From a virus, in the IMG/VR virus record IMGVR_UViG_3300042350_004090, positions 1 to 23,385 of that record: a stretch of 23,385 nt of DNA. One strand, 5' to 3'. The notes under the pieces are model-generated. The model was not told the origin of the DNA, did no database searches, and saw only the letters and a list, made by a program, of their open reading frames with translations. Both the position numbers and the translations under genes were made by a program. Positions 1,574 to 19,308 of the stretch are shown here, in pieces (position 1 is the first letter of the stretch; every line of letters begins with the position of its first letter).

Positions 1574-4500
1574 TTACCGTCTTTTCTTTTTAGCACGTTT
1601 AGGTGTAGCACCAACATTTGCAGTTCCACCATTAGTTGCAGTAGCATTTGGATTTCCTGATCCAGTTGGTGGTGTTTGCAATGGTTGTGATGCCCAAGAT
1701 GCCCAATCAGCAGAAGTAGGCGGATTTGTTCCAGGTGCAGGAACATTTGGTTTAGTTTCTGTTGCCGGTGGAGCACCACCAACTACTCTAAATCCACCAT
1801 CTGTTTTTGCAGGTGGGGTAAGTCCAACACCTTTCAATAAATTATTAGAACTTACATCTGGAGTTGTTGTACCCGTAGCTGCTGGCGTAGCACCTTGCAT
1901 CATCAATGGTGTTGGTCTTTGTTGTTGTGGTGTTGCAGCCGGATTACTTGTTGGTGCAGCACTACCTTGACCAGTTCCAGTTGGTGAAGACGATGTTGAA
2001 GTTGCAGGCGGATTTGGATCCGTAGAAACATTTGCCTGTGTATCTTCTCTTAATTTTTCATCCGGAACTGGTATCTTATCTTCACTATTAGGTGAAGGTG
2101 AGTTATACAACTCTACATTTTCAGGATCGGATGCGGACTTACCATCTATAGCACGGAAATAGTTTACTCTCTTATCACTTTGTGGAATAAGACCGGTTTC
2201 AATATCAGCACCGGTATCATCATACAATGAGTACATAACACCATTGTATTCTGGACGATATACGCCTATCGGTGTAAATGACAAACCAACTTGAATATGT
2301 TTTGGTAATTGTAATGCACCAGGTGTAGACAATGGAACATTATCTGCAACAACATTCAACTTTTTATCTTCTGATAAGTGTGCAGTTTCCCATGTAGTTC
2401 CAGCATTATCAAATGTGTATGACAGACTACTTATGAATCCTGGCATTTTTCTATAAAGATGACCTATATTCAATCTTATTATTGGACCACGAATCAAACC
2501 ACCCTTTGTATATTCGGGAGCAGTCCATGATGCTAAGTGATTCAATTTACGCCAAGATGCCTTCATTTCATCGCGCGATCCAATGTGAACTGTGAATCCA
2601 AAACTTATACTTCTTTCATATCCATCATAAACATACAATGGATCTCCTCTACCCATATACTTTATTGGATTCCACTTTGGACTATGATTATCAGTTATAG
2701 AATCAAATGTTGCTCTAAATGCAATAATTTCAGCTGGTCTGTTTACACCACCGGCTTGAATTTTTAATCCTGTAAAGTAAAATTCTATCAAGTCTTCTGT
2801 GCCAGGTATTGAATCATTATTGTATTTACCCTTTTCATATACCAAGTTTTTATTTATATTTTTAGTTACTTTTCTGTAATCCAATATGTTGATTCTATCA
2901 CCTCTAAATTGACGACCATTTTTCAACTGTGGAGATGTTGCACCTGTTTTGGTACTCTTAGCATAAGTTACATTGCTAACAAAAGGCAAGTTTCTTTGAC
3001 TACCAGGTTCACCTGCAGAACCAAAACCAAAGTATCTTTCCAAATTTAATGCATGATATTTTGCAAAACTTGGATCAGACATAATATATTCTTTTTTAGC
3101 AGCTTCATTATTTTGAACAGTTGATGTTGTTCCATCTGCATTTGTAACGGTTCTAGTTTGACCCTGGTCTTGTGCATACAAATCAAATCTAAAATCATTG
3201 AATTTTCTAGATCTATTTGGATCACCACTTGTAGCTTTTCTTAAATTACTATATGTTGCACTCAAATACTTTTTCAAAGGATCAGTTTCATTTGGACTTG
3301 ATGTACTTATTGTCTCTGTATCTGCTTCGTTTGCAACACCAGCATTTATGAAATCAGTTCTTCTAACTCTATCTGCAATAGTTTTTCTTTTTGGATCATA
3401 TGGATCCAATTGTTTTATTTTCTGTAAAGTTGTATCTTGTAGATTTATCTTACTTGGCAATGTTGAAGATCTAGTTGTATTTATTTCAAATGGTGCATCA
3501 TCTAAAATTTCAGAAAGTTTCCTTAATGATCCAAAAATTTTCTTATCCGAAGAAACATAATCATTTATTATTTCATTTGAATAATAATTTGGTTTATCGC
3601 CTTCAGCATTTAATGTACTATAATACTGATTTCTCCTTGATGTTATAGGGTATCTTGGATTTTTTTCAGATGTTATACTCCAAGGTGGTGCATCATATGT
3701 TGATGTTTGAACCGCATTTGATGGACCACCATCAGGAGCAGTTTGACCGGTGTTTCCTGAATCTGGTGGATTTGATCCAAATGTTAAATTTGATTCTGGT
3801 AAAACAGGAGATGTTGAATAAAATGTTAAATGTGGATGTCTTGATTTTCTAATTGTAGTTGGACCAAGACCCAAAGGAGAATGAACTCCACCATTTTGAG
3901 TAGACAGACGATTGATTACAACATTTTGAGATATTGTAGGTGATGATCCAGATATTGGTTTGAAAGATTCCGGTAACATTTCTTTCATCAAACCAATCAA
4001 ACGGTTGTAATTCGTTTGATCTCCAGAAGAACTTGGTGTTGTTAATGTTCTCCAAAAATCAGAAGTTGCATCAGGAAATGCACTATACTCTCTTTTTATA
4101 GTTGTACTTTCATATCTGTTCAATGATGTTTCATCGGAACCACCAGTTAAACTATGTCTTGATATTCTAACACCATTTGATGCACCTCTTATATTTTCTA
4201 TTATTGATCCAGGATTGTATATCTGTGTTGTTGAATTTATTACAGAATCTCCATTTCCAGATAAAGAATCCACATCCGCATCAACTGCTGGATTCATTAG
4301 TTGTAATTGCTTTTGTTTTTCTGTAAAGGTTGTTCCTTTTGTTGATCTCAAGAATTTCTCTATTCTATCTATATCTCGGTCTATCCTTTCTTGTAAAGTT
4401 GATGATCCACCCCTAACAGTTCCGTCATCAACCACAGATCTCATAGACCATCTCTGACCAATATCTCTTGTTTCGTATGGTTGTAATTCTCTATCTAAAT

Positions 4501-7500
4501 TATATGAATTATTTTGTAAATTGTACTTATCATATTGTTTATCCAATTCCGAAGAAAACATCCCTTTGGTTGCCCAAGTTGTCAAGTAACCAACACTATT
4601 TGTAACATTTTTCATGTTTCTTTCGTATGGATTACCATAATTACTCGGTCTTGCCTTTACTTTTGAATCTGGCACTTGATTTGATAATGACGATAATAAA
4701 CCACCAGTTCCAGATTGTTTTTTACCAAAACTATTTGGTGCAAACTTTTCTCTATCGTTTACTATTATACCACCAGCACCTCTTGCGGATTCTATACTAA
4801 CTCTATCACCGGAAACAGCATTGTATTTTAACTCTGGCTTTATTATTGGATATAAAGTTTCTGCAATAGAGTTCATTTTTGGCATGAATCCCCTTCTCTC
4901 ACCTGCAAGTATTCCAAAATAATTTGTTATTGGTATACCGGTTATAGTGGATTTATTTTGACCAGTTTCGGTAGATAACGCCGAATAATTTGGTGACAGG
5001 TTGGTGTTTGATTTATCAGCAAAAAATGGAACGAACCCCTTATCTCCACCTGGAACTTGATTTGGTGAACTTATTGCTATCCCAAAATACTTAACACCCG
5101 GTGCATCAGATTTTGCACCCTTCCATGATAAACTTCCATATTCAGATACAAAATCACTTGTTAATGTTTGTGGTAAAGCAGTAAATCCTTTCGATGCATC
5201 ATTTGGGATGAAATCAACTCCAGGTGCCTCAGACCTACCACCTTTCCATGTAAATATACTACTATCACTAGTATACTTTGTTTCTAATGATGGAGCAAAT
5301 GAATTAAATCCAGTAGTGTTATCATTTGGAAAATAATCAACAACAGATGCAACAGATCGTGCACCCTTCCATGTAAATGACGAAACATCGGAAACATATT
5401 GTGTTTCGAGTGGTCTGGCAAATGTTGTGAACCCAACACTTTGATCATTAGTTAGATAATTTGTAGCAGGAGCATTGGAAGATGCACCTTTGAATGTAAA
5501 TTCACTAATATCTGTTTGGTATTCACTTACAAGTTTCTGTGCCTTTAATGTGAATCCTTTATTAAAACTATCTGGAAAAAAGTTTACTTCTTTTGGAACG
5601 CTACCTGCAAATGTTAATTTTGAAGAATCTTTTACATATTCACTTTCCAAAGATCTAGGAAATTTTGTAAATCCTGGAGAATTTGTATTTCCAAAGAAGT
5701 TTGTTGTTTTTGCATCATTCTTTGATCCGTTAAAATCAAATTCAGATGAATCTTTTACATACTTTGAATCTAATTTTTGCACCAATCTTGTAAAACCACC
5801 TTTACTGAATTTTGATGTTTTATCAAAATAGTTTTGTTCCGGAGCAGTATTTGGTGTTCCCTTCCAATCAAAATTCGATGATTCTTTTTTATATTTACTA
5901 TTGAGTAATTGAACCAATCTCTCAAAACCAGCACTACTGTATTTGGATTGTAAATCAAAATAATTTATTTGTGGAGCGGAATTTCTAGATCCATCCCAAT
6001 CAAAATCAGAAGATTCATTTTTATATTTTGTACTCAATTTTTCCGCAAATAAATTAAATCCTGCGGTTGTATATCTTCTGTCTCTATCAAAGTAATTTAC
6101 ATTAACTGCATTTGTTCTCAACCCATCCCAATCTAAATCAGAAGAATCTTTTTTATACTTACTTTCAAGTTTAGTTGAAAATGTATGAAAACCAGTTGAA
6201 CTATATTTTGATTCTAAATCGAAATAATTTACAGCAGGTGCATTTACTCTTGATCCATCCCAATCAAAATCAGAAGAATCTTTTATGTATTTGCTTTCCA
6301 ATTTTGGTATGAAAGTAGTGAATCCTGCAGTTGTTACTTTATTAGTCAAATCCAAATAATTAACCTGTGGTGCATCTGACCTAAAACCATCCCAATCAAA
6401 ATCAGAAGAATCTTTTATGTATTTGCTTATTTGGAATTGCGTAAATGTATTGAATCCTTCCGTTGATACTTTCGATGTTAAATCCAAATAATTTACAGCG
6501 GGAGCATTACTTCTCTTACCATCCCAATCGTAAATTGAAGAATCTGGAATATATTTTGATTCACCTTGAACTGCAAAACTATGGAAACCAGCATTAGAAT
6601 GAGCGGAAGTCAAGTCAAAATAGTTTATCGTTGGTGCACTTTGTTTATCACCATCCCAATCGTAAATTGAAGAATCGGGAACATATTTCGATTCACCTTG
6701 AGCGGCAAATGTTGTAAACCCAGCATTAGTATGAGTGGATGTTAAATCAAAATAATTTACAGCCGGTGCAGTATCTTTTGCACCATCCCAATCGTATACT
6801 GATGAATCTGGAATATATTTTGAATCGCCTTGAGCGGCAAATGTTGTAAATCCTGCATTGGAATTTGCAGATGACAAATCAAAATAATTTACAGCAGGAG
6901 CTGCGTCTTTTGTTCCATCCCAATCATATACAGATGAATCTGGAATATATTTTGAATCGTATAATTGTCCAAATGTACTAAAACCAACATTAGTGTGTTG
7001 TGATTCTAAATCAAAATAATTTACAGCAGGAGCCGCTTGAGCAGTACCATCCCAGTCGTATAATGATGCATCTGGAATATATTTTGAATCACCTTGACCA
7101 GCAAATGTATGGAAACCCAAATTACTACTCAACCCCTCTATATCAAAATAATTCACAGCAGGTGCGGTTTGTTTTGATCCAATCCATGTCAATTCGGAAG
7201 AATCTGGAATATATTTTGAATCGAACAGTTGTGATAAACGACTAAAACCAAGTGTTGTGTATCTATTTGTTATATCAAAAAAGTTTGTTTCTGGAGAAGT
7301 TGTTCCATTTCCATCCCAATCATATTGAGAAGATTCTATCACATATTTTGAATCGTATAGTTGTGATAGTTTACTAAAACCTGATATTGTATTTTGTTTT
7401 TTTATATCAAGAAAATCTGTTTCCGGAGCACCATCTCTTTTACCATACCAAGCAAATATAGAACTATCTGGTTTATATTTAGTTTCACCTTGAGCAGTAA

Positions 7501-9319
7501 ATGTTGTAAATCCAGATGTAGTATATCTTCCATTTTGATCAAAATAATCAGTTTGTGGTATAGTTGAAAATGAAAAAGTCGAACTGTTTGGTATGTAATC
7601 TGTTATATTTTTTCTTGCAAATGTTCGGAATCCTATTCCAAAATCATCATCCATAAAATTAACAGACGGAGCCGCACCACCCTTGCCATTCCATGTATAT
7701 GCAGAATTTGATAATAATTTTGAATCACCAATTTGTTGATTTGCAGTAAATCCAATTCCATTTATATTTTGAAAAAAGTTTACTTCCTGTTTTCCAATCA
7801 TAGATAGGCGTGATTCATTTACGTTTTCATGTCTTCCAGATGGATCTGTAAATTCAACATCATCTAAATTGTAAATACTATTGTCTTCTAATTGTCTTGA
7901 TTGTAAGTCATATCTAACTGCAGATACAATTTGTGATGGAGACATTTCCATTAAGTTAGAAATTTGAACATATCTAACTGGCTCATCATCTATATTAAAA
8001 ATGCTAGTATCTTCTAACATTTGTGATGCCAAATCGACTCTGAATACTTTTGTGTCCGGAATAGTTATTAAACCACTCTCTGGCAAATCGGTAATTATTT
8101 CTGGAGATTCCGATGTTCTATCAAAAGATAATTCTCGTCTTTCTAATGCAATATCCGGATTAACAACATTATTCAATGGTGATAACAAATCCTTATTTAT
8201 TACAACCGATTGTGGTTCTAAATCAGCAAATAAAGGTGGTCTTATTATTGTTATATTTGGATTCTCTATGTTGTCAGTTGCATCATCTTGATTTACAATT
8301 ATAGTTGGGGATTGAGCTGATCTCTCAAAAGTTTGATCCGGTCTTATTATATCAATATCTGGATTTTGAACATTATCACTCACATCGTTTGGATTGACTA
8401 TTATTGATGGTGATTGTTCAGTTCTGTCAAATGAAAGTTCACTCCGAACTATATCTATATTAGGGTTTTGTATATTATCGCTGGCATCATTTGGTGTAAC
8501 ATTTATAGTAGGTGATTGTGATGTTCTATCAAACGATAATGGTTTTGATAATATATCAACATTTGGATTTTCTATGTTATCACTGGCATCATTTGGATTT
8601 ATATTCACATCAGGAGATTGTGTACTTCTATCACTTGACAAAACAGACGGTACTATCTCTATTTTTGGATCAGTTATATTGTTAGTCAATTCAGCAGAAT
8701 TTATTTGTATTTCTGGTGAATACGCTTCAAGTCCAGATGTTAATGGTGTCTGTTCTAAATTTGTATTTGAAGTTAAATTGTTCGTTCCGGCATTTACTTT
8801 TTGAATTTGAATTTCAGAACTATTCAATCTGCTCTGAATTTGTTCATTTCTAATTTGACCAAATTGTGATATTATTTTTTCTAACGGAACATCACCAATA
8901 CCACTATTTCCAAAATCAGCATTGATTTCGGATAGATTTGAAACAGAATTTACCAATCCTTCTTGAAATACTTTTTTTACTATATCATCTTTTTTTGTTC
9001 TTGATAAGTTAGTTTCAATAGGTTTTGTTTTGAATTGTTTTATTTCATCTAATTTTGTTGTACTCAAATATCTCTGTATTGGAACCGGTTTTGGTTTTCT
9101 TATATCATCTCTTTTTGTTGTTCCCAATAATTTAGTAACATCCGTTTCTTCCGGACGATTAGGTGATGGTACTATTGGTGCAAAGATTTGAGTAATAGGT
9201 TGGAACGTAGCAAAATTCTTGGCATTCGTTGCTTTAGATGCCTCTGGTGAACTTTTATCTTCCTTTGAAAAATCAGAACGAAATTTCGATAAATCCGAAG
9301 TTATATCTATCAATGACAT
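1574..9319 (-). CDS. Giant repeat-containing baseplate/tail-tube-initiator-like protein (about 2581 aa)
   Basis: The frame is open from TTG at 9331, but I choose ATG at 9319 because GGGAAG lies just before it and the TTG has no ribosome site. Order of parts: residues about 40-140, charged with three short degenerate repeats; 201-433, six or seven repeats of 34 residues; 430-530, a duplicated LEDxSIxNxDD segment; 532-1437, about 21 repeats of 39-44 residues; 1440-2180, long and polar; 2185-2360, a folded domain with SPKWNPIKYMGRGDPLYVYDG and later LPKHIQVGLSFTPIG; 2400-2581, Pro/Thr/Ser/Ala-rich, ending in a basic tail. I recall the folded domain from virion baseplate proteins encoded after the tape measure; it resembles tube-like initiator proteins (gp48/gp54 role), but this is from memory. 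The repeats have no function I recognise. It is unusually large for this slot. The gene is certain; the function is inferred. Confidence 0.8.
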   Translation of the reverse strand: MSLIDITSDLSKFRSDFSKEDKSSPEASKATNAKNFATFQPITQIFAPIVPSPNRPEETDVTKLLGTTKRDDIRKPKPVPIQRYLSTTKLDEIKQFKTKPIETNLSRTKKDDIVKKVFQEGLVNSVSNLSEINADFGNSGIGDVPLEKIISQFGQIRNEQIQSRLNSSEIQIQKVNAGTNNLTSNTNLEQTPLTSGLEAYSPEIQINSAELTNNITDPKIEIVPSVLSSDRSTQSPDVNINPNDASDNIENPNVDILSKPLSFDRTSQSPTINVTPNDASDNIQNPNIDIVRSELSFDRTEQSPSIIVNPNDVSDNVQNPDIDIIRPDQTFERSAQSPTIIVNQDDATDNIENPNITIIRPPLFADLEPQSVVINKDLLSPLNNVVNPDIALERRELSFDRTSESPEIITDLPESGLITIPDTKVFRVDLASQMLEDTSIFNIDDEPVRYVQISNLMEMSPSQIVSAVRYDLQSRQLEDNSIYNLDDVEFTDPSGRHENVNESRLSMIGKQEVNFFQNINGIGFTANQQIGDSKLLSNSAYTWNGKGGAAPSVNFMDDDFGIGFRTFARKNITDYIPNSSTFSFSTIPQTDYFDQNGRYTTSGFTTFTAQGETKYKPDSSIFAWYGKRDGAPETDFLDIKKQNTISGFSKLSQLYDSKYVIESSQYDWDGNGTTSPETNFFDITNRYTTLGFSRLSQLFDSKYIPDSSELTWIGSKQTAPAVNYFDIEGLSSNLGFHTFAGQGDSKYIPDASLYDWDGTAQAAPAVNYFDLESQHTNVGFSTFGQLYDSKYIPDSSVYDWDGTKDAAPAVNYFDLSSANSNAGFTTFAAQGDSKYIPDSSVYDWDGAKDTAPAVNYFDLTSTHTNAGFTTFAAQGESKYVPDSSIYDWDGDKQSAPTINYFDLTSAHSNAGFHSFAVQGESKYIPDSSIYDWDGKRSNAPAVNYLDLTSKVSTEGFNTFTQFQISKYIKDSSDFDWDGFRSDAPQVNYLDLTNKVTTAGFTTFIPKLESKYIKDSSDFDWDGSRVNAPAVNYFDLESKYSSTGFHTFSTKLESKYKKDSSDLDWDGLRTNAVNVNYFDRDRRYTTAGFNLFAEKLSTKYKNESSDFDWDGSRNSAPQINYFDLQSKYSSAGFERLVQLLNSKYKKESSNFDWKGTPNTAPEQNYFDKTSKFSKGGFTRLVQKLDSKYVKDSSEFDFNGSKNDAKTTNFFGNTNSPGFTKFPRSLESEYVKDSSKLTFAGSVPKEVNFFPDSFNKGFTLKAQKLVSEYQTDISEFTFKGASSNAPATNYLTNDQSVGFTTFARPLETQYVSDVSSFTWKGARSVASVVDYFPNDNTTGFNSFAPSLETKYTSDSSIFTWKGGRSEAPGVDFIPNDASKGFTALPQTLTSDFVSEYGSLSWKGAKSDAPGVKYFGIAISSPNQVPGGDKGFVPFFADKSNTNLSPNYSALSTETGQNKSTITGIPITNYFGILAGERRGFMPKMNSIAETLYPIIKPELKYNAVSGDRVSIESARGAGGIIVNDREKFAPNSFGKKQSGTGGLLSSLSNQVPDSKVKARPSNYGNPYERNMKNVTNSVGYLTTWATKGMFSSELDKQYDKYNLQNNSYNLDRELQPYETRDIGQRWSMRSVVDDGTVRGGSSTLQERIDRDIDRIEKFLRSTKGTTFTEKQKQLQLMNPAVDADVDSLSGNGDSVINSTTQIYNPGSIIENIRGASNGVRISRHSLTGGSDETSLNRYESTTIKREYSAFPDATSDFWRTLTTPSSSGDQTNYNRLIGLMKEMLPESFKPISGSSPTISQNVVINRLSTQNGGVHSPLGLGPTTIRKSRHPHLTFYSTSPVLPESNLTFGSNPPDSGNTGQTAPDGGPSNAVQTSTYDAPPWSITSEKNPRYPITSRRNQYYSTLNAEGDKPNYYSNEIINDYVSSDKKIFGSLRKLSEILDDAPFEINTTRSSTLPSKINLQDTTLQKIKQLDPYDPKRKTIADRVRRTDFINAGVANEADTETISTSSPNETDPLKKYLSATYSNLRKATSGDPNRSRKFNDFRFDLYAQDQGQTRTVTNADGTTSTVQNNEAAKKEYIMSDPSFAKYHALNLERYFGFGSAGEPGSQRNLPFVSNVTYAKSTKTGATSPQLKNGRQFRGDRINILDYRKVTKNINKNLVYEKGKYNNDSIPGTEDLIEFYFTGLKIQAGGVNRPAEIIAFRATFDSITDNHSPKWNPIKYMGRGDPLYVYDGYERSISFGFTVHIGSRDEMKASWRKLNHLASWTAPEYTKGGLIRGPIIRLNIGHLYRKMPGFISSLSYTFDNAGTTWETAHLSEDKKLNVVADNVPLSTPGALQLPKHIQVGLSFTPIGVYRPEYNGVMYSLYDDTGADIETGLIPQSDKRVNYFRAIDGKSASDPENVELYNSPSPNSEDKIPVPDEKLREDTQANVSTDPNPPATSTSSSPTGTGQGSAAPTSNPAATPQQQRPTPLMMQGATPAATGTTTPDVSSNNLLKGVGLTPPAKTDGGFRVVGGAPPATETKPNVPAPGTNPPTSADWASWASQPLQTPPTGSGNPNATATNGGTANVGATPKRAKKKRR
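5009..7726 (-). repeat. About 21 tandem repeats of 39-44 residues in the giant protein
   Basis: Unit consensus: SKY(I/K)xDSSxxDWDG, then xxxxAPxVNYFDL, then a variable stretch and GFxxFxxxxx. Central copies are 44 residues (132 nt) and nearly identical in protein while differing at silent sites. Copies toward both ends diverge and the later ones shorten to 39-41. A further degraded copy may lie at about 4870-5008. The pattern fits repeated unequal duplication followed by selection on the protein. Confidence 0.95.
8023..8719 (-). repeat. Six to seven tandem 34-residue repeats in the giant protein
   Basis: Unit consensus: SPxIxxNPNDxSDNIxNPxI, then DIxxxxLSFDRTxQ (about 102 nt). Four central copies are regular; the first and last two are degraded. 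The sequence is unrelated to the downstream 44-residue family in the same protein, so two arrays arose independently in one gene. Confidence 0.9.
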
Positions 9320-9340
9320 TATTCTTCCCAAATGTTTACT

Positions 9341-9364: not shown

Positions 9365-12300
9365 TCATATGCGTCTTCCATAAGTGTTGTCTATTGCAAC
9401 ATTGTAAGATTTTCTTAAATCTATTGTTGATTGTATTTCTTCTACTGTTTTTTCTCCAATCTTTATTATAGTTGGTTGTGAAGTTATAGAAGATAATACG
9501 GCTATCAATTTATCTAATTTTTCAACAACTGCAGCATTTGAATCACCACGAGATGTGGATGCACTCTTTGTTGATGTTCCTGCTTCCATTTCTTTTTGAG
9601 CGGCAAGTGATTTGACTTTCTCCACACTTTCGGGACCAGCAGGTGTTGTTGCTCTGGATTGAACTACTCCTGGACCACTTGACATTTGAGGAGACGAGGA
9701 AATACCAAGAACACTTGCAATACCAGACATAGCACCACCAATAGTTGATGAAACTGATTTAGCAGGAGAAGTTGTATTACCAACAGTATTACCAATTATC
9801 GAAGAAAGTTTATCTAACCCAGCAGCGGATTGTTTTTCTATCATTATTCCTATTTTCGTATCAATGGATTTTAATACTGCCAACTCTGGAGTTTCTCCTG
9901 TTGATTTTTCATTACCAGCGGCAGATAATGCACTTCCAATTTGTTTTGTAGAAGATGCACTAGCAACTACTGAACCTTGTGGTAACGAAACAACCTCAGG
10001 TCCCTTTTCACCTACAAGAGTTGCACCACCTTTTGATATTGTTCCACCGGTTGCAGCTGCACCAATTTTTTTCTCACTACCTTCTTTTTTACCTTCTTCT
10101 TGTTTTTCTTTTGACATATCTTGAACAACTTGTTTGGATTGTCCTGCAGATTTATTTGCCTCTTGTTTTTCTTCACCACCCATTCCTAACAAATCCAAAG
10201 CCCACCCTGGAAGCATATCTTTTACTGCGTTCTTAATTTTACTACCGATTGATTCAAATAATCCAACAAATTTTTTGAAAATATCTTGAACGAGAGTTAC
10301 AGGTGCCATTAAAAAATCAAGAATTGCTTTTCCTATTGTTTCTAAACCACCTTTGAAATCACCAGTGAATATCTGAACTATACCACCAATCAATCCTTTC
10401 ACCAAATCAAATGGACGCATCAAATACTTTATTATTGATGCACCAATATCCCATATAAAACTACCAATGGTTTTGAATATGTCTTTTACAAAATCAAAAA
10501 ATACACCAACACTTTTTGTTAAATTTGTTCCAAATATAGAATCTATCACACTGCTTATTGCAGTTAAAATTATTTTTGGTAATCCGAGAAGTGTTCCAAA
10601 CAAAAATTCTCCAATAGCAGATCCAATATCTTTCATGCCACCAACAAAATCTCCTGTAAACATTTTTATTATTGCCTTTGCAACATCCCATAATAATGTG
10701 AACGGTTTTACCACAAATTCAAATATAGGTTGTGCTATATTTGAAAAAACATTCATAAAAGTATTTTGTATAGAGTCAAAAAATTTAGTAACACCTTCTG
10801 TCAGATTTGTTCCAAATATACCATCTATTATACCGGTTATCGTAGTCCAAACTAATTTTGGCAACCCGTATATTTCATTAAACAAAAATTTACCAATCGC
10901 TGATCCGATTTGTTTTAGTCCCCCAACAAAATCTCCTGTAAACATTTTGATTATACCCTGACCTATATCCCATAATGATTTGAAAGGCGTTATTATCAAA
11001 TCCATCAATACTGTACCTGCACCTGAAAACAATCCAGTGAATCCTTGAAACATTTTTTTAATAGAATCAAAAAATCCAGTAACACCTTCTGTCAGATTTG
11101 TTCCAAATATGCCATCTATTACACCAGTTATTGCCTCCAATATCATTTTTGGCATACCAAAGAAATACTTAAATATCCAAGTACCAACATCTTCTAGTGC
11201 TCCAGTAACATCACCCGTAAAAAGTTTTACGATAGCGCTTATTACCAGAGTAACCATTTCCAAAGGTTTAATTATTAAACCGGCTATCAATTTACCGATA
11301 GGAGCTATTATTTTTCCTAAAATTTCAAATCCCTTTCCTATTATTTCTGTGAAACCAGCAGTTTCTTTTGCACCTTTATTTGCTCCAAATAGGGGTTCAA
11401 ATGCCTTCTTTACTTGTTCATACAAACCTTGAAAGGTTTTGAATATACCTTGAAACGATTCCCAAAGTGGAGTGACTATTGCCTTCCATAACATTTTTGT
11501 TGGTGTTATCAAAAATTCTATTATACCCTTACCAATGTTAGAAACAACACTAAAAATTGTATCAAGAACACCACTTATAGTTTGAAAAATAGTTGCAATC
11601 CCACCCGCACCTTCTGCACCACTTCCAAATACTGAAAATATCTCTTTTAATGCATCAAATATAGGTCCCAACAAACTGAAAAACAATCTCATTGGAAATG
11701 TCATTACTTTATAGATTATACCACCAATGGCAAACAGTGATTCCATTATTGGTTTCAATATGTCCATTATTCCATCAAAAATACTAAAAAGTGATCCAGC
11801 AGCATCGCCACCTTCAAACATTGCATGAACCATATCAACTAGAGGTGTTATCAGTTTTTCTGCAGATTGTTGTATTTTTTTCATAACATCTGCTAATTTA
11901 TCCGCAAATGTTGCAGAATCTTTATCGGCTGCAAGTGCTTCCAATTTATCAGCAGCAGCCGCTTTGCCACTTTTTCTCATTTTTTCTGCTTCTTCTCTCA
12001 ATCCCTTCGCATTTTGTAAGTGTTTTTGTTCAAGCATTTCTGAACTCAATCCTACATCTTTTAACTCTTGTGCCTTTGATAACATTGATGTCATTTCTTC
12101 AACAGACATACCCATAGCATCCGCCATTGCTTTCTGTTGAATACGATTCATTTCAGTAAATTCTGATAATGATCCAGCTTCTTCTAACAATGTATCTTGT
12201 AATTTACCAATTTCACCACTTAAAGCATATTCTCTTGCCTTATCCAAGTTTAAGTTTTTACCAGTTAGAACTCTTGCTTCCATTTCTTTTGCAAGTGAAG

Positions 12301-14035
12301 ATTCTATGTCTAATAATCCATCACCGATTTCTTGAACTCTTCTCAAGTCTGTGCCCAATAATTTTGCCTTTTGTGATGCCTTAATAAGTGAATCGGTTCC
12401 ACCCTTGAAAGCAACCGCAACTTCTTTTGGAACAGATGCAAGTGTTTTCATTGCTGCCTTATCAGTCATAAGACCTTTTCCCATCTTAACAGTATCATTC
12501 GTTAATTGTCCGATTGATTTGCCTGTGATAGTAGATAACGTTCTCATATTATCAATTTCATCTGCACTCAAACCAAATTTCTCACCAAGTATTGCGGTGT
12601 CTTTTACAAGTCGTTTCATCTTTTCACTAGCTTCACCTGTTCCTTTTGATATAGAAGCAACATCCAAACCACCCATTGATTCACTAACTTGTGCCATAGA
12701 TTTTGCAAGTTCACCGGCATTCAATCCTGTTATCTTCATTTCAGAAGACATTTTCTTTGCAGTATCAAGTGTTTCTCTTGCTTCTTTTTTGTTTCCACCC
12801 AAAGACTTCTGAACTTCGGAAACTTCCTTATCTACACCAGCAAATGCTGCAATTATCAAACCAACAGCAGCAAGAATACCAAATATAACAACTTGTGGAC
12901 CGGCTAAAAGTGCCATACCAAATTGTTTTGCAGCCAATCCCATTGCCTTAAATCCAGCAACTCCACCTTGTTGAAATCCAGTGGTAACATTCATTAAACT
13001 GTTTCCAAGATTCTTTGTTATATTGTCTTTCATTTTATCAAAACCAAGTGTTTTTAATAAAACGCCACCCCCTGGAATCTTTTTAACAGCACCTTCTACC
13101 CCATCAAACATTCGATTCATTCCACTCTGATCGATTACATCTTTCATTTCTTTCTGTCTATCTAGTATTTCCTTTTGTTTTGCGGAATCCTTTTCATTTA
13201 GAATGTTTGCCTCTGTTTTAGCAGCAACTATTGCTTCCAATCCCTCTTTTTGTTTTGTGTAGAAATTAACAGCAGATTGATCACCCTTTGCTTTTGCACT
13301 CGCTATATCAAGTTCGATATTTGCAATACCAAGAAGTTCTCTATCCATTGATAATTTTTTGAAACTACCCTTTGCAGCTTCTTCTGAAGCAGTTGCCATG
13401 TCTTGTTGAACTTCTGACATGAGTGCACTAGTTTCAAAATTTCTTCTCATTAGTTTTATCAACTCTTGTTGATCTGCAACATTAGCGCTCTGTGCATCTT
13501 GTAGTAATTGTGATCTAGATTCTAATGTCTGATTGATATACTCATCAAGTTTTCTTTGAGAACCAGTTTGATTTATTGCATTCTTTGCAGATTCACTAAT
13601 TGATTCCCTATTTTTCTTAATGTCTATTTCATAACGGTTTATATCTTTTTGTATGGCAAGAATTGTATCCTGTTGAATTTTTATCTTTTCCGATTCTTTT
13701 CCAAGTTCTTCACTATTTTTGAGAATGTCTTTTGTCATATCAACAGTATCTTTTTGTAAATCAAATATACTTTGACTTATCTCCTGTCTCTTTTCGTCTG
13801 AATCGAATACTTTACCATTGATGTCTACTATCTCTTTGGATATTCCCCTTTTTTCTTTTTCTAAATCTAATAGTTTGAATTGAATGTTGGCGGCCTCTTT
13901 CAAATTGACAACATCTTCCGATGAAAGAGTTTTTAACTTTTCACGTAACGCTATCAATTCTTTTGTAATTTCTGCCTCAGCTTTTCGTAAATTACTAATA
14001 TCTTCGGCAGTTTTTTTATCTAACTCTTCGGCCAT
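9365..14035 (-). CDS. Tail tape measure protein
   Basis: A 1556-residue protein that sets tail length and is packed in the tube lumen until DNA ejection. Residues 1-300 are highly charged and predicted coiled coil. A strong hydrophobic, membrane-like segment lies at about 380-400 (IFGILAAVGLIIAAFAG). Residues 450-700 are helical and Ala/Lys/Glu-rich. Residues about 720-1260 are hydrophobic, with four repeats of about 94 residues. Residues about 1330-1355 carry the motif GGATLVGEKGPEVVSLPQGS, which recurs near the C-termini of many tape measure proteins. A polar C-terminal part follows. The start is ATG within GATATATGG; the ribosome site is weak. The gene follows a terminator-like hairpin containing the octamer. 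Size, composition, motif and position agree, so the call is firm. By the usual rule of about 1.5 angstrom per residue, the tail would be long, well over 150 nm (inference). Confidence 0.95.
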   Translation of the reverse strand: MAEELDKKTAEDISNLRKAEAEITKELIALREKLKTLSSEDVVNLKEAANIQFKLLDLEKEKRGISKEIVDINGKVFDSDEKRQEISQSIFDLQKDTVDMTKDILKNSEELGKESEKIKIQQDTILAIQKDINRYEIDIKKNRESISESAKNAINQTGSQRKLDEYINQTLESRSQLLQDAQSANVADQQELIKLMRRNFETSALMSEVQQDMATASEEAAKGSFKKLSMDRELLGIANIELDIASAKAKGDQSAVNFYTKQKEGLEAIVAAKTEANILNEKDSAKQKEILDRQKEMKDVIDQSGMNRMFDGVEGAVKKIPGGGVLLKTLGFDKMKDNITKNLGNSLMNVTTGFQQGGVAGFKAMGLAAKQFGMALLAGPQVVIFGILAAVGLIIAAFAGVDKEVSEVQKSLGGNKKEARETLDTAKKMSSEMKITGLNAGELAKSMAQVSESMGGLDVASISKGTGEASEKMKRLVKDTAILGEKFGLSADEIDNMRTLSTITGKSIGQLTNDTVKMGKGLMTDKAAMKTLASVPKEVAVAFKGGTDSLIKASQKAKLLGTDLRRVQEIGDGLLDIESSLAKEMEARVLTGKNLNLDKAREYALSGEIGKLQDTLLEEAGSLSEFTEMNRIQQKAMADAMGMSVEEMTSMLSKAQELKDVGLSSEMLEQKHLQNAKGLREEAEKMRKSGKAAAADKLEALAADKDSATFADKLADVMKKIQQSAEKLITPLVDMVHAMFEGGDAAGSLFSIFDGIMDILKPIMESLFAIGGIIYKVMTFPMRLFFSLLGPIFDALKEIFSVFGSGAEGAGGIATIFQTISGVLDTIFSVVSNIGKGIIEFLITPTKMLWKAIVTPLWESFQGIFKTFQGLYEQVKKAFEPLFGANKGAKETAGFTEIIGKGFEILGKIIAPIGKLIAGLIIKPLEMVTLVISAIVKLFTGDVTGALEDVGTWIFKYFFGMPKMILEAITGVIDGIFGTNLTEGVTGFFDSIKKMFQGFTGLFSGAGTVLMDLIITPFKSLWDIGQGIIKMFTGDFVGGLKQIGSAIGKFLFNEIYGLPKLVWTTITGIIDGIFGTNLTEGVTKFFDSIQNTFMNVFSNIAQPIFEFVVKPFTLLWDVAKAIIKMFTGDFVGGMKDIGSAIGEFLFGTLLGLPKIILTAISSVIDSIFGTNLTKSVGVFFDFVKDIFKTIGSFIWDIGASIIKYLMRPFDLVKGLIGGIVQIFTGDFKGGLETIGKAILDFLMAPVTLVQDIFKKFVGLFESIGSKIKNAVKDMLPGWALDLLGMGGEEKQEANKSAGQSKQVVQDMSKEKQEEGKKEGSEKKIGAAATGGTISKGGATLVGEKGPEVVSLPQGSVVASASSTKQIGSALSAAGNEKSTGETPELAVLKSIDTKIGIMIEKQSAAGLDKLSSIIGNTVGNTTSPAKSVSSTIGGAMSGIASVLGISSSPQMSSGPGVVQSRATTPAGPESVEKVKSLAAQKEMEAGTSTKSASTSRGDSNAAVVEKLDKLIAVLSSITSQPTIIKIGEKTVEEIQSTIDLRKSYNVAIDNTYGRRI
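10258..11290 (-). repeat. Four hydrophobic tape-measure repeats of about 94 residues
   Basis: Each copy carries a PFxxLWD-type start, IIKMFTGDFVGGL, an IGSAIGxFLF helix, GLPKxxxTxI and, in three copies, IDxIFGTNLTxxV. The TGD motifs lie near 11215, 10935, 10653 and 10362, giving spacings of 279, 282 and 291 nt. All spacings are multiples of three. Confidence 0.85.
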
Positions 14036-14046
14036 ATATCTACATT

Positions 14047-14088
14047 AAAAATAAAAAAATAGTTCGTATACATAAATATACGAACTAT
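14047..14088 (-). terminator. Intrinsic terminator with octamer in its loop, before tape measure gene
   Basis: A perfect 12-bp inverted repeat (ATAGTTCGTATA and TATACGAACTAT, 14059-14070 and 14077-14088) with a 6-nt loop, followed on the coding strand by TTTTTTATTTTT. It lies just after the stop of the shifted gp26-like frame and 11 nt before the tape measure ATG. The octamer spans the left arm end and the loop. Confidence 0.8.
14072..14079 (-). promoter_or_regulatory. Octamer ATATTTAT before tape measure gene
   Basis: Coding-strand ATATTTAT preceded by T, 36 nt before the ATG, within the apex of the 12-bp terminator hairpin. A transcript starting a few bases downstream would lack the left arm and so could escape termination. 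Confidence 0.6.
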
Positions 14089-14090
14089 GA

Positions 14091-14318
14091 TTATTTTGGA
14101 TTAAAAAATGGTCTATTGATTGTATTCGTGTTAGACCTATTTTCTTGTTGTGACATTGAATTTGTTTTTTCGTTAAATTTTATTATCTCTTTCAGATAGA
14201 ATCTCCGGAGATGTATTGGCAAAGAATATACTTCATCCCATGTAAAACCACCTTGACCATGATAACATAAGTTAAAAATTTCTTCATGTAAATTTAACTT
14301 ATACTCAATTCCCAGGCC
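14091..14318 (-). CDS. Start-less overlapping frame, probably the frameshifted extension of the gp26-like protein
   Basis: This frame gives 75 residues after the run of seven T at 14319-14325: GLGIEYKLNLHEEIFNL, then CYHGQGGFTWDEVYSLPIHL, then RRFYLKEII and a polar tail to TAA at 14091. The core (LHEEIF, G-G-FTWDEVY, MP/LP-hLRRFY) looks like a genuine folded domain and reminds me of small proteins or extensions next to gp26-family genes in T4-like phages. No ATG, GTG or TTG stands before the conserved part; the first TTG is inside it and the only ATG is near the end. The frame is +1 to the gp26-like gene and overlaps its last four codons, directly upstream of the tape measure gene, as in G/GT-type chaperone pairs. 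The shifted product would be about 359 residues. Alternatives are a rare ATT or CTG start, or a homopolymer sequencing error. Coding is well supported; the mechanism is inferred. Confidence 0.75.
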   Translation of the reverse strand, partial: GLGIEYKLNLHEEIFNLCYHGQGGFTWDEVYSLPIHLRRFYLKEIIKFNEKTNSMSQQENRSNTNTINRPFFNPK

Positions 14319-15171
14319 AAAAAAACGATACCCCCATGGGTATTTCCAACTCCTTTACCTCACCGGTAGCATCTGAAATAAATGTGTATGTCATATCCAA
14401 ATCAGGAGACATTGACTTAATATATTGTCTTAATGCTCTCGAATCTGCAGCAAATAATTCATTATCAACAAAATTATTTATAGCAGCACGACCGCTTTCA
14501 CCATCAACTGCAATAATAATATGTTTGAGTCTTGTTGTTAGTTCTTTGTCAATTCCAGTTCTAACCAATGTTTTATTCATAGATTTTATTTCAGATTGAA
14601 TTTCTTTTTCAGTTCTATGCGTCATAAGACGAAATGTTACGACTCTTTTTGAATTTGGAAGTTCAAAATCAAATTCATTTTTGCCGTTCTCAAATAAGCT
14701 ATAATCGACCTCCTTGTGCTCAATTTGAGTTAAATCTATTGTTACTTTTTGTTTTGTTCCAGTAGAAAAAGGATCTTCTATTTCAACCTCATAATCTTTT
14801 CCATAACCTAAAATTCTGGCAGCAACCATAATTGCATTTTTATCACCAACATACAAATCGTTATAGTCTATTGGTGTAACAATCAAAGACTCAAACAATT
14901 TATCCAATACAACACCTTGTTTAATTAAATTTTGTGATGTCAAAATATCTTCTTCTTTCGCAGTCATATATTTCATTTCAATAACACCACTGCTCAGAGC
15001 ACTGCTTTCGTGATATATCAACCCTCTTGATGGCAATGGAACTATCTCTGTTGGAAATTTAGACTTTTTAACTTCTGTTTGTTTGTGTTCCGATAATAAT
15101 TGGGCTTTTATATCTGCATCAGAAACGGTTTCTTCGTTTTGCAAATCATAGCCGGTTGGAATTTTTGTCAT
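14305..15171 (-). CDS. T4 gp26-family baseplate/tail assembly protein
   Basis: A 288-residue protein of the T4 baseplate (gp26-like) family. Residues 40-60 hold PTEIVPLPSRGLIYHESSAL, followed by GVIEMKYMTAKEEDILTSQN, the usual family opening. It ends IPMGVSFFWPGN, and the FFWP ending is typical as far as I recall. In T4, gp26 is a small baseplate hub assembly factor. Here the gene is immediately upstream of the tape measure and its end overlaps a second frame in a +1 register, so a role like the tail-assembly chaperone gpG is plausible. The start is ATG after a weak TAGGAT site. The octamer lies 43 nt upstream, directly after the stop of the dehydratase gene. There is no signal peptide or membrane segment. 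The family is confident; the exact role is not. Confidence 0.85.
   Translation of the reverse strand: MTKIPTGYDLQNEETVSDADIKAQLLSEHKQTEVKKSKFPTEIVPLPSRGLIYHESSALSSGVIEMKYMTAKEEDILTSQNLIKQGVVLDKLFESLIVTPIDYNDLYVGDKNAIMVAARILGYGKDYEVEIEDPFSTGTKQKVTIDLTQIEHKEVDYSLFENGKNEFDFELPNSKRVVTFRLMTHRTEKEIQSEIKSMNKTLVRTGIDKELTTRLKHIIIAVDGESGRAAINNFVDNELFAADSRALRQYIKSMSPDLDMTYTFISDATGEVKELEIPMGVSFFWPGN
14319..14325 (-). other. Candidate frameshift site: seven T in a row
   Basis: Zero-frame codons are TCG TTT TTT TGG CCT. Phe-tRNA on the second TTT can move forward by one and still pair perfectly with TTT, giving TTT GGC CTG and entry into the overlapping frame. A single-tRNA -2 slip would reach the same frame with one extra Phe. 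The zero frame stops 15 nt further on (TGA at 14305-14307). Confidence 0.6.
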
Positions 15172-15225: not shown

Positions 15226-16194
15226 TCAGTTTGAAATATACCAATCAATAGTTGATTTTAGTCCGTCTTCAAACTTTATCAGGGGTTTCCATCCTAATTC
15301 TTCTTTCGCCTTTGATGAATCTATTGCATATCTTCTATCATGTCCTAATCTGTCTTTTACATAGTTTATTGTAGAATTTTTTACATCCATGAGAGAAATT
15401 ATTTTTCTTACTAATTTGCCGTTAGACCATTCATTATCTGATCCAACATTGTAAACTTCACCATTTCTACCTTTTTCATATGCAAGCCAAACAGCTCTAC
15501 AATGATCATTTACATGAATCCAATCTCGCACATTGAGTCCATCGCCATATATTGGTAATTTTTCACCATTCATTGCTTTGGTTATTATCAACGGTATCAA
15601 TTTTTCCGTATGTTGTCTTGGACCATAATTGTTTGAACAACGGGTTATTACAGCAGGAACACCATAAGTGTGATAGTATGAACGAACAAAACAATCAGCA
15701 GAAGCTTTTGCTGCTGAGTATGGTGAATTTGGTTGTAATTGCGTAATCTCTGTGAATTTATCATTGGAATCTAATTCGAGACTACCATATACTTCATCCG
15801 TAGATACTTGTAAAAACCGTTTTAAGTTTAATTCTTTTGCAACATTCAATAGTGAAACAGTTCCGATAACATTAGTATCTAAAAAAGGTTTACTGTTATT
15901 TATTGAATTATCAACATGAGATTCTGCAGCAAAATTTATTATACCCTCTACATTGTAAACTTTACAAATAGATTTTACAATATATGTATCACGAATATCT
16001 TCTTGAACAAATATATGTCTGTCATCTTGTTCAATAAACTTTTCAACATTTTTTTTATTACCAGCATAGGTAAGCAAATCTAAATTCACTATTCTAATAT
16101 CAGAATCAAAATCATCTAACATCATGTGAATAAAATTACTACCGATAAAACCACAACCCCCGGTAACGAGGATTGTTCTTTTTTGATGTGACAT
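15226..16194 (-). CDS. rmlB: dTDP-glucose 4,6-dehydratase
   Basis: A 322-residue short-chain dehydrogenase/reductase of full family length. It converts dTDP-glucose to dTDP-4-keto-6-deoxyglucose, the precursor of rhamnose and other deoxysugars, in the cytoplasm with tightly bound NAD. Visible features: the nucleotide-binding TGGCGFIG at residues 11-18, FAAESHVDNS at 88-97, the catalytic TDE triad at 132-134 in STDEVYG, the YxxxK pair at Tyr159 and Lys163, NNYGPRQHTEKLIP at 188-201, RDWIHV at 223-228 and the substrate-binding LGHDRRYAID at 283-292. All catalytic residues are present, so it should be active. It is odd in a tail gene block, with no other sugar gene in view; likely acquired from a bacterium and used to modify host surface sugar, phage DNA or virion. 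The start is ATG with a weak ribosome site. A terminator-like hairpin ends 3 nt before the ATG. A related epimerase/dehydratase specificity is possible but less likely. Confidence 0.93.
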   Translation of the reverse strand: MSHQKRTILVTGGCGFIGSNFIHMMLDDFDSDIRIVNLDLLTYAGNKKNVEKFIEQDDRHIFVQEDIRDTYIVKSICKVYNVEGIINFAAESHVDNSINNSKPFLDTNVIGTVSLLNVAKELNLKRFLQVSTDEVYGSLELDSNDKFTEITQLQPNSPYSAAKASADCFVRSYYHTYGVPAVITRCSNNYGPRQHTEKLIPLIITKAMNGEKLPIYGDGLNVRDWIHVNDHCRAVWLAYEKGRNGEVYNVGSDNEWSNGKLVRKIISLMDVKNSTINYVKDRLGHDRRYAIDSSKAKEELGWKPLIKFEDGLKSTIDWYISN

Positions 16195-16289: not shown

Positions 16290-16778
16290 TTAGTATTGAA
16301 GGATAGCATAATCATATGCGAGTGTAAGAGAAATCTCTACAAACGCATCGTTTGCCCAATCCATATCACCGAATGTTGTTGCAGTGATGAATGCTCCTTT
16401 TAGTGTCCATTCTTCAACTTTATCACCAACAGGACCAAGAACATGCAATGTTATATCTTTCTTGTAGAAGTCAGAATAACCGTCACGACCAGTTACAGAT
16501 TCGTGTGAAAGACGGACCCATTCCATAACTGCCTGAGCAGCAGAAGGAACGATTGGATCATAGAGTTTAATTGAAACATCTTGCCATTCACCTTTACCTT
16601 TAACTTTACGTTTGATGTTAATGTGGTCTAATGTAATCGGGTTAAAGCTGATATTTGGACGACCTGCACCTTTTACCAAATATGCGGGAACGCCTTCAAT
16701 ATACATAATAAATCGGTTTTGTAATTTCGGCTCAAACGGGGTAAAAAATACTTCCGTGGGATCAAGTAATTCAGCCAT
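16290..16778 (-). CDS. Tail tube protein, gp19-like
   Basis: A 162-residue protein, almost exactly the length of T4 gp19 (163). It polymerises into the inner tube of the contractile tail around the tape measure. Family features include the N-terminal LDPTEVFFTPFEPKLQNRFI, GRPNISF, the positively charged loop near residues 55-62 (INIKRKVKGKGEW) and the C-terminal WTLKGAFITATTFGDMDW followed by an ISLTLAYDYAIL strand. The ATG is preceded by a good ribosome site (GGAGAT). The gene has its own octamer 31 nt upstream and is separated from the sheath gene by a strong terminator, so tube and sheath output can be set separately. The call is firm. Confidence 0.96.
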   Translation of the reverse strand: MAELLDPTEVFFTPFEPKLQNRFIMYIEGVPAYLVKGAGRPNISFNPITLDHINIKRKVKGKGEWQDVSIKLYDPIVPSAAQAVMEWVRLSHESVTGRDGYSDFYKKDITLHVLGPVGDKVEEWTLKGAFITATTFGDMDWANDAFVEISLTLAYDYAILQY

Positions 16779-16869: not shown

Positions 16870-19308
16870 TTAAGCACCGGGAAACGCCGCACCAGTAGAC
16901 TGAATGTTGAAATCAAGTATGATAAATTCAGCTGTTTTTGCAGGTTGTAGATACAACTGTCCGTAAAGAATGTTACGGTCAATAATATCCGGTGTATTAT
17001 TACTTTCATCCATGATAACACGGAACGCATACAAACCTTGACGTTGTTGAATTGATTCAAGATATGGATTCACAATGTTCAAGAAACGAGTTCTTGTTTG
17101 TGATGTGTTTTGTTCAAACACGAGGTATCTTGTAGAAGAAGCAATAAACTTCTTAGCAGCAATCAACAGACGGCGAACATTGATACGGTCAAGAGCAGAA
17201 GGACGACCTTGAAGTGTTTTTTGACCCCATACACATACTCCAGTTGATGGGAATACTGCAATAGGATTAACACGTGCTTCATAAAGTTGGTCTCTTTCGG
17301 CTTGTGTCAAACGAGTTTTAACTTCAACAACTTCTGTCAAACCACCACGATTCAAACCAGCAGGAGCGAACCATTCAGCAGACACACGGTCATTAAATGC
17401 AATAACACCAGGAAGAACAACGGATGGTGGAACCCAAACAGGTTTATTTCTATCAAAATCAAGAATTTTAACCCAAGGATAATATGTTCCAGCATAGTTT
17501 GTGTCTAAACCTTCTGTTGTAGATACTGCACTTGCAATGTTATCGTTTATTCCGGTTGAATCCATCACATAGAATGCATCACCACGATTCTCACACATAT
17601 CAACAGCATATGTTGTTATTGGTGAGTGTAATGAATGTAAAACACCAGGAGTTGAAAGTAAGTTAATATCAAATTCATCTGCGTTTGAAATAGCATCTAT
17701 TGCCTTTTTGTAAGCAACATAACCATCGGCTGCAGTTGTTGATATATCAAATCCTTGTGTGTTTCCTGCCTCTATATGTATACCTGTTTTCTTTTGAAGA
17801 TTTGGTTTATGACCATCAAATCCGCCTTGGAATGGCAACATAAATTTACGACTATCAAGTGCTGTATTGGTTGATAAATCTATCGAGGAACTATATGATG
17901 TTGCACTTGATGGGAAATTAGCAGAAGCATCTTGTTCGTAATCACCCAAATAGAAATCTATGTTTGATCCAACTGTTTGATTTGCAGGAATCGGCAATGG
18001 TCTTAAATAATTAAAGTTATCTGTATTTGCGAAGTCATAATCAAATCCCCAGTAAACTCTACGATTGTAAGCACCACCAACTGTTTGTGATTGAACATAT
18101 GAAGCTGCAGGTGGTTGAGTGAAAGCATCTGGTATAGGTGTTATTAAAGCACGGAATCCAAAAGGAACAAGTGTAGGTGAAACTGCACCATTTGCAACAG
18201 CATCACTAACTTCAACACGAATATATTTTGATTTATTAGAATAATCACCATTAACAACTACTTTTCCTTCGTCTGTTATCGTAATATATCTATCACCAAC
18301 TACTCTTGCAATGTATTTAGGTGAATTTGGATCAAGATTGGCCTTGAAAGTTTCAACTATTGACGGTCTAATATCTTCATCTTCGGTGTTAAAAGGTGTT
18401 TGTGGTAAATTAGATTGATCAACAAATCTAACAACAACATCAAAATCACCATATTCAGATCCAGCTATTGTCCCAGCTGTACGAATGTTTGCAATACCAA
18501 CTTTTACTTCATAGTTAGAATGAATACCATGAGAAAGAGTGTGAAACTTAAACAAATCAGTTTTTGTAGCACCAATCTTTTGAGATGTTACCCAAGGTGT
18601 AGATGCCTCTGAATAATCTTGTAAGAAGTTCCACGGTGGTGAACTTGATCCAGTTTCTATTAAAACTGTTGTTGCTGGATCAGCTGCAAGTGATGCAGAT
18701 GCTTGGTATCTAAAATTAACATAGTTGTAAACAGCATGAGTTCCATATGGGTTATATCCATACAAATCACCAATATAAGATGTAGTTTCTGGGTCAATAG
18801 AAGCGCTGAAAGGAACACCATCTTCATTTGTTGCATTAGTAAACGATGAAGTATCGGTGAGGAAATCACCAGCTACTGTCAAAACAAAACTACCACTTGC
18901 ATTTGATGCTAAAATTGAATCCTTAAACAATGAAGTTGATCCATCACTTGTAACAGCAAATGTTGGGTGTAACATTGAAATCAATTTTTTACCCCATGAA
19001 CCAGTTGCAACAAGTGCTATAGGATGTGTCAGTGAATATCCACCAGAACCAAGAACACGGATAATGGTTGTACTACCAGCATTATTCAAATAGTTTTTAG
19101 CGGTATACGGTAAGTATGATTGCTCAAATGTTCCACCAAATTTTGTTACAAAATCGTTGTAACCCTGAACAACCGTTGGGACAAACGCAGGTCCCTTAAG
19201 CGTTGGTCCTATAAGTGCAGCACCAATTTGACCAATACCTTGTTGAAGGAATGAAAGGTCATTTTCATTAGTAAACACGCCAGGACTTACAATTCTTTCA
19301 TTAGCCAC
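16870..19308 (-). CDS. Contractile tail sheath protein, gp18-like
   Basis: An 812-residue sheath subunit, longer than T4 gp18 (659), with the extra length in the variable middle (about residues 100-480). The N-terminus (ERIVSPGVFTNENDLSFLQQ) and the C-terminal third are the conserved parts: GVCVWGQKTL at about 680, the RRLLIAAKKFIASSTRYLVF helix, then NPYLESIQQRQGLYAFRVIMD and a final strand near AEFIILDF. The C-terminal domain forms the inter-subunit mesh next to the tube and drives contraction. The start is GTG at 19308, supported by GGAG 7 nt upstream; the next in-frame residues are Ala-Asn-Glu. The gene lies between a small coiled-coil gene and the tube gene. It has an octamer 37 nt upstream and a strong terminator downstream, as expected for a very highly expressed gene. 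The call is firm. Confidence 0.97.
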   Translation of the reverse strand: MANERIVSPGVFTNENDLSFLQQGIGQIGAALIGPTLKGPAFVPTVVQGYNDFVTKFGGTFEQSYLPYTAKNYLNNAGSTTIIRVLGSGGYSLTHPIALVATGSWGKKLISMLHPTFAVTSDGSTSLFKDSILASNASGSFVLTVAGDFLTDTSSFTNATNEDGVPFSASIDPETTSYIGDLYGYNPYGTHAVYNYVNFRYQASASLAADPATTVLIETGSSSPPWNFLQDYSEASTPWVTSQKIGATKTDLFKFHTLSHGIHSNYEVKVGIANIRTAGTIAGSEYGDFDVVVRFVDQSNLPQTPFNTEDEDIRPSIVETFKANLDPNSPKYIARVVGDRYITITDEGKVVVNGDYSNKSKYIRVEVSDAVANGAVSPTLVPFGFRALITPIPDAFTQPPAASYVQSQTVGGAYNRRVYWGFDYDFANTDNFNYLRPLPIPANQTVGSNIDFYLGDYEQDASANFPSSATSYSSSIDLSTNTALDSRKFMLPFQGGFDGHKPNLQKKTGIHIEAGNTQGFDISTTAADGYVAYKKAIDAISNADEFDINLLSTPGVLHSLHSPITTYAVDMCENRGDAFYVMDSTGINDNIASAVSTTEGLDTNYAGTYYPWVKILDFDRNKPVWVPPSVVLPGVIAFNDRVSAEWFAPAGLNRGGLTEVVEVKTRLTQAERDQLYEARVNPIAVFPSTGVCVWGQKTLQGRPSALDRINVRRLLIAAKKFIASSTRYLVFEQNTSQTRTRFLNIVNPYLESIQQRQGLYAFRVIMDESNNTPDIIDRNILYGQLYLQPAKTAEFIILDFNIQSTGAAFPGA

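Follow-up and report, generated by a model that had tools for sequence, protein, structure and literature searches.

Organization of the locus

The window, by which we mean the whole 23,385-nucleotide stretch of viral DNA analysed here (IMGVR_UViG_3300042350_004090), carries on its minus strand a gp26-family open reading frame of 288 amino acids (TAC-N, 15171-14305) with the C-terminus MGVSFFWPGN; its 3' end reads TCG TTT TTT TGG CCT GGG AAT TGA, the stop codon occupying 14307-14305. A second minus-strand frame, open from 14354 to 14091, lies in the +1 register (equivalently -2) relative to this gene and overlaps its end. This frame translates as RSWKYPWGYRFFGLGIEYKLNLHEEIFNLCYHGQGGFTWDEVYSLPIHLRRFYLKEIIK... 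and encodes the domain LHEEIFNLCYHGQGGFTWDEVYSLPIHLRRFYLKEI, and in the window no ATG, GTG or TTG codon stands ahead of its HEEIF domain. The original prediction had described such a start-less frame meeting the gp26-like gene at seven T residues, and we confirmed the observation: the run, TTT TTT T(GG), encoding Phe-Phe-(Trp), lies at 14325-14319 (minus strand) and is preceded by a G at 14326, referred to here as position -7. After a +1 slip the next codon would be GGC (14318-14316), the beginning of a C-terminal domain lacking a start codon (TAC-C, 14318-14091, GGC to TAA). Conceptual +1 read-through of the junction gives a putative fusion of 359 amino acids (TAC-NC, 15171-14091, minus strand), and translation of the window thus agrees with the predicted product sizes of 288 and about 359 residues and with the predicted direction of the shift.

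The next gene downstream (9365-14035, minus strand, 1556 amino acids, no Pfam match) was identified as the tape measure gene by its position. The gp26-family gene lies directly upstream of this position, as it does in phages immuto, LIS04 and SP-15, and the orthologous downstream gene is annotated as a tape measure in immuto and LIS04; the predicted location just before the tape measure gene therefore held, with the window's own tape measure assigned by position only. The interval separating the TAC-C stop from the tape measure start holds a terminator- or processing-like hairpin with a T-run after it (14050-14097, minus strand), and phage Mel-JY01 has a similar element at the matching position. 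The minus strand also encodes the tail tube protein gp19 (16290-16778; PF06841) and the tail sheath (16870-19308; PF04984/PF17482). A sugar-nucleotide 4,6-dehydratase gene (15226-16194, minus strand; PF16363, E 6e-85) sits within the tail operon, with the gp19 and gp26-family genes on either side, and a minus-strand ORF of 2585 residues (1574-9331) contains many repeat copies built around SKYIPDSSxYDWDG...APxVNYFDL...GFxTF. Searches of the window for tRNA genes and for Rfam families found none.

The gp26-family protein is a predicted tail assembly chaperone

TAC-N matched the Pfam family T4_baseplate (PF12322; T4 gp26/gp51) with 36.7 bits against a cut-off of 24.5 (E 4.6e-9), and also matched PHROG 150. 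As TAC-N and TAC-C were modelled apart, structural comparisons were made for each separately. The AlphaFold2 model of TAC-N (pLDDT 90.6) had strong matches in BFVD only to baseplate hub assembly proteins of T4-like phages. A Foldseek search of the PDB with this model returned one sensible match, the HK97 gp13 tail assembly chaperone (2ob9), which ranked second and was not significant (E 0.89), and a profile search of PDB sequences gave no match. From its family and its genomic position, we predict that the protein is a tail assembly chaperone with short (TAC-N) and long (TAC-NC) forms.

The TAC-C model consists of three helices, and a fold search with it returned nothing significant. T4 gp26 and gp51 both match PF12322, and gp51 has an additional C-terminal segment. 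Run directly against gp51, the TAC-C HMM found no match; hhalign of TAC-C with the gp51 residues past the PF12322 domain aligned the right segment weakly (E 0.043, probability 1.2%), and one of 38 TAC-C members matches PHROG 634. A resemblance of TAC-C to the gp51 C-terminus is thus suggestive only. TAC-C also has a weak similarity, below cut-off, to DUF6760 (PF20546; E 3.9e-5; two of 38 members), and DUF6760 proteins may be stand-alone relatives of TAC-C.

The +1 arrangement is conserved among relatives

A search of viral contigs identified 598 relatives, from which the best 80 were taken first. Among these 80, every complete junction had FFWP or FFYP (LFWP in L071) and then the small domain in the +1 frame. 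Further scans yielded 259 loci in which both domains were detected, and TAC-C was in the +1 frame in 257 of them and in the third frame in two. Every +1-frame TAC-C overlaps the end of TAC-N; as the shortest overlap is 23 nt, the shift must be confined to the motif. Seventeen additional loci from bacterial and archaeal genome bins (L369-L385), which played no part in forming the rule for position -7 described below, all place TAC-C in the +1 frame and have no T at -7. The contigs at L369-L385, from the window's phage lineage, sit in bacterial and archaeal MAGs, many of them Flavobacteriales, a hint at Bacteroidota hosts.

Because homopolymers are prone to error, a sequencing or assembly mistake in what is truly one continuous gene had to be considered. 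We assign this explanation a negligible likelihood, since the same relation recurs in 257 of 259 loci from unrelated metagenomes and in the sequenced isolates Mel-JY01 and immuto, and many of the sites contain no homopolymer. A miscount of the T-run, against which the original prediction had cautioned, is further ruled out by a second contig (IMGVR 3300044627_004046) that is identical to this stretch of the window over 3237/3237 nt.

Every relative with the +1 arrangement retains the slippery motif, either as T7 or in a closely similar form. The zero-frame codons of the 167 unique junctions are TTT TTT TGG CCT in 103, TTT CTT TGG CCT in 28, TTT TTT TAC CCT in 17 and TTC TTT TGG CCT in 12, with a few close variants besides, and every junction provides at least one P-site codon able to slip by +1 and re-pair (UUU to UUU or UUC, CUU to UUU). 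This variety bears on two other ways of reaching the same frame. Slippage of RNA polymerase on the T7 tract, yielding mRNAs with a changed number of U residues, is conceivable, as T7 is a homopolymer and U tracts can cause such slippage, but about a quarter of the unique junctions keep the +1 relation with a longest run of four T or fewer (TTT CTT TGG, TTC TTT TGG, TTT CTA TGG), which makes this explanation very unlikely. A -2 ribosomal shift as in Mu would also lead to this frame, adding one Phe to the fusion; UUUUUUU allows Phe-tRNA to re-pair after a -2 slip, and -2 shifts are known for tail chaperones (PMC5009743). We nevertheless consider a -2 shift unlikely, because at TTC TTT TGG (12 unique junctions), as at the UUC UUU CGN sites of Streptococcus phage GXN1 and of L385, the middle base would be mispaired after a -2 slip, whereas a +1 slip restores full pairing, a re-pairing argument that applies to these site types only.

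The domain encoded in the shifted frame is filed either as gp51 or as a hypothetical protein of its own in the public records of L082, L083, L276, L278, L280, L282 and L274, the records concerned being WWT39326.1, immuto gp038, SP15_046, Atu_ph07 gp687, 121Q 595, NVP2275O_435 and syn9 gp13. These separately listed C domains look like mis-annotated frameshift extensions.

Selection on the slip site and the shifted frame

Codon tests used 59 representatives sharing less than 80% identity. The proline codon after the slip site (14316-14314 in the window, dual-coded with GGC CTN of the +1 frame) is CCT in 58 of 59 representatives, compared with 33% expected from elsewhere (p = 8e-27), and the next Asp codon is GAC in 29 of 29 (p = 3e-20 against 21% elsewhere). 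At the second Phe codon, 49 of 49 have TTT. The invariant third bases coincide with the second positions of +1-frame codons (Leu, Thr) and are the ones required there to spell Gly-Leu-Thr, so that beginning at the slip site the +1 frame is protein-coding and under protein-level selection. Elsewhere in the same gene family, 42 kb of sequence contain no in-frame TTT TTT T, which argues that the junction motif is not a product of chance. Within the first 12 shifted codons, ATG, GTG and TTG are all absent in 53 of 59 representatives. Judged from these codon comparisons, the gp26-family/TAC-C arrangement is evidently under purifying selection. The comparison of relatives called for by the original prediction has thus come out in its favour, with the +1 relation in 257 of 259 loci, the T-run or a close variant kept and start codons mostly absent.

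The two exceptions, L179 and L184, are informative about whether TAC-C could be an ordinary separate gene, translated from a non-canonical start codon or by re-initiation past the TAC-N stop. At both loci an ATG-initiated small domain lies in the third frame just after the first stop codon. At these same loci, however, the slip motif has decayed (TTC TTG TAT CCT and TTC CTT TGG CCA) and the +1 frame is closed. All other relatives have a motif that is invariant at synonymous sites and a +1 frame under constraint from the slip onward. A separate gene is therefore highly improbable as an explanation of the arrangement in the window. An ordinary start codon in homologues, an outcome that the original prediction had allowed for, is accordingly found in L179 and L184, and the other 257 of 259 loci have the +1 frame. 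In the tree, L179 and L184 branch from inside the +1 clade, next to the group of Flavobacterium phage immuto. As a natural control, these two loci indicate that the slip motif decays once the small domain has a start of its own.

The base at position -7 tracks the direction of the shift

Other members of the family place the C domain in the opposite frame. In cyanophage syn9, gp26 ends TCT TTT TTC GGG TAG and the C domain lies in the -1 frame; 75 of 75 unique cyanophage relatives likewise have TAC-C in the -1 frame at the motif T TTT TTC (U UUU UUC). The jumbo phages 121Q, PA5oct, Atu_ph07, Vibrio 2.275 and XacN1, as well as LR756511 and three relatives (L189-191), also use the -1 frame, with a T before TTT TTT or TTT TTC. 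Compared with this -1 slip class of T4-like chaperones (U UUU UUC), the window falls outside, its TAC-C being in the +1 frame and its -7 base a G. The +1 frame together with a base other than T at -7 is likewise found in Bacillus phage SP-15 (GAA TTT TTT CAC), Listeria phage LIS04 (GAG TTT TTT AGT) and Streptococcus phage GXN1 (GAA TTC TTT CGT), and the distant members GXN1 and L385 have exactly UUC UUU CGN.

Within the main +1 clade, none of 44 T7 representatives has T at -7 (synonymous codon usage predicts 23.3; P = 1e-16), nor does any of 10 TTT-C sites (5.3 expected; P = 3e-4); these P values overstate independence because the representatives share descent. At TTC-TTT sites, where the first codon is not UUU, T is found in two of four (2.6 expected). 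Avoidance of long homopolymers fails to explain this pattern, as T is also avoided in TTT-C sites, where only four T would result; avoidance where only TTTT would form argues against transcriptional slippage as well. The -7 rule also holds across deeply separated +1 and -1 clades. The simplest reading of these sequence patterns is that the absence of T at -7 reflects selection against -1 slippage of Phe-tRNA.

On the tree, two separate groups with support show the +1 state, and the fork joining them is not settled. On balance, we favour the view that a few bases at a homologous Phe-Phe pair, chiefly the presence or absence of U before UUUUUU, set the direction of programmed frameshifting, that at least one change of direction and probably more have taken place, and that one lineage has gone back to two separate genes.

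Proposed mechanism

From our comparative analysis, we propose, with a probability of about 0.92, that a T4-like myovirus makes its tail assembly chaperone from this locus in two forms, the long one through a +1 slip in UUU UUU UGG. Comparative evidence strongly supports the original prediction, in which a programmed +1 frameshift ahead of the tape measure gene joins a start-less C-terminal domain to a gp26-family protein. Most ribosomes would terminate at TGA and release TAC-N (288 amino acids). In a minority, the P-site Phe-tRNA would move forward by one base, from UUU to the overlapping UUU within UUU UUU UGG, after which GGC CUG... would be read in the +1 frame to give TAC-NC (about 359 amino acids); both the slip itself and the proportion of ribosomes that slip are inferred. 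By analogy with lambda gpG/gpGT (reviewed in PMC5009743), the N domain would bind or coat the tape measure protein and the C domain would recruit tube subunits. The direction probably arises from the local sequence, with a U just 5' of UUUUU(U/C) permitting -1 slippage in cyanophages and jumbo phages, and with the exclusion of U at -7, together with a U following the second Phe codon, making the +1 slip the productive one.

To our knowledge, few bacterial +1 sites have been documented that lack both a stop codon and an obvious stimulator. We found no enrichment of an upstream Shine-Dalgarno-like stimulator compared with random positions, and the search for downstream RNA structure gave a weak folding bias (mean z -0.7). 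The window itself contains a perfect 10-bp AU-rich inverted repeat (14267-14302) that begins 17 nt past the slip site. The A-site codon varies among relatives (UGG, UAC, UAU, UUC, CUA, CAC, AGU, CGN), and a rare or stop codon is therefore no common cause. Known P-site codons for +1 slippage include UUU and CUU when a U follows, and influenza PA-X provides a proven +1 site at UUU_CGN (PMC10885494, PMC5052127). Low, unstimulated slippage has been suggested for some tailed phages (PMC5009743), and such slippage may suffice at sites of the window type.

Relation to known systems

Vladimirov and colleagues reportedly found in 2022 that frameshifting is conserved in several T4-like groups and that T4 uses genes 26 and 51. 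The window shares with the T4-like chaperones (gp26/gp51, PF12322) the N-domain family and the logic of N and N+C forms; in T4 itself the two forms are separate genes, 26 and 51, whereas the window has a +1 shift at an exactly limited T7. Lambda gpG/gpGT resembles the window in that overlapping chaperone genes precede the tape measure gene and give short and long products, but its shift is -1 at GGGAAAG, and no sequence relation to the window's proteins is expected. Cyanophage syn9 gp26/'gp51' (Kyanoviridae) shares the protein family, the Phe-Phe position and the small C domain before a large gene, and its relatives differ in their -1 shift at U UUU UUC (75/75).

The chaperone role of T4 gp26/gp51 and frameshifting in T4-like phages were both published in 2022 (Vladimirov, Gautam and Davidson, Virology 566:9-15, as cited in PMC10885494 and PMC12846349). 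The original prediction, which treated T4 gp26 as a hub assembly factor and knew of no frameshift reported for it, is out of date on this point, the chaperone role that it inferred for the gp26 family having already been published. A 2016 review describes -1, -2 and +1 chaperone frameshifts in other phages and names T4 as an exception (PMC5009743). In the parts of the literature available to us, TAC-N genes of some T4-like groups carry poly-T -1 signals (PMC12846349), in contrast to the +1 shift of the window; the 2022 paper, which we know as cited, may include a +1 subgroup. The chaperone of Vandenendeviridae/Andersonviridae (phage Adele) likewise has a poly-T slip site at the end of TAC-N and a C domain mis-annotated as a separate gene, but it shifts by -1 at a GTTTTT motif (PMC12846349). 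UUU_CGN sites of influenza PA-X and amalgaviruses (PMC5052127) are similar in that a P-site Phe-tRNA slips +1 from UUU, and differ in belonging to eukaryotic viruses and unrelated proteins. Listeria phages PSA and A118 also use a +1 shift in a structural gene, at a proline CCC_U site at or near the stop codon and in the major tail protein rather than a chaperone (PMC5009743).

In the literature searched, we found neither the +1 variant nor its extent over hundreds of loci, nor any account of U being avoided at -7, of -1 and +1 contrasting in a single family or of a return to separate genes. As frameshift-made T4-like chaperones were already known, the forward direction and what tracks it appear to be the new part. 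With the present analysis, a very large uncultured T4-like lineage joins the phages whose tail chaperones are made by frameshifting, and the annotation is corrected for many phages in which the C domain had been entered as a hypothetical protein of its own. Since the homologous +1 and -1 sites differ from each other by a few bases, the question of frameshift direction becomes testable with simple reporters, and if direction is indeed set by a few bases, this family would constitute a natural experiment on frameshift direction.
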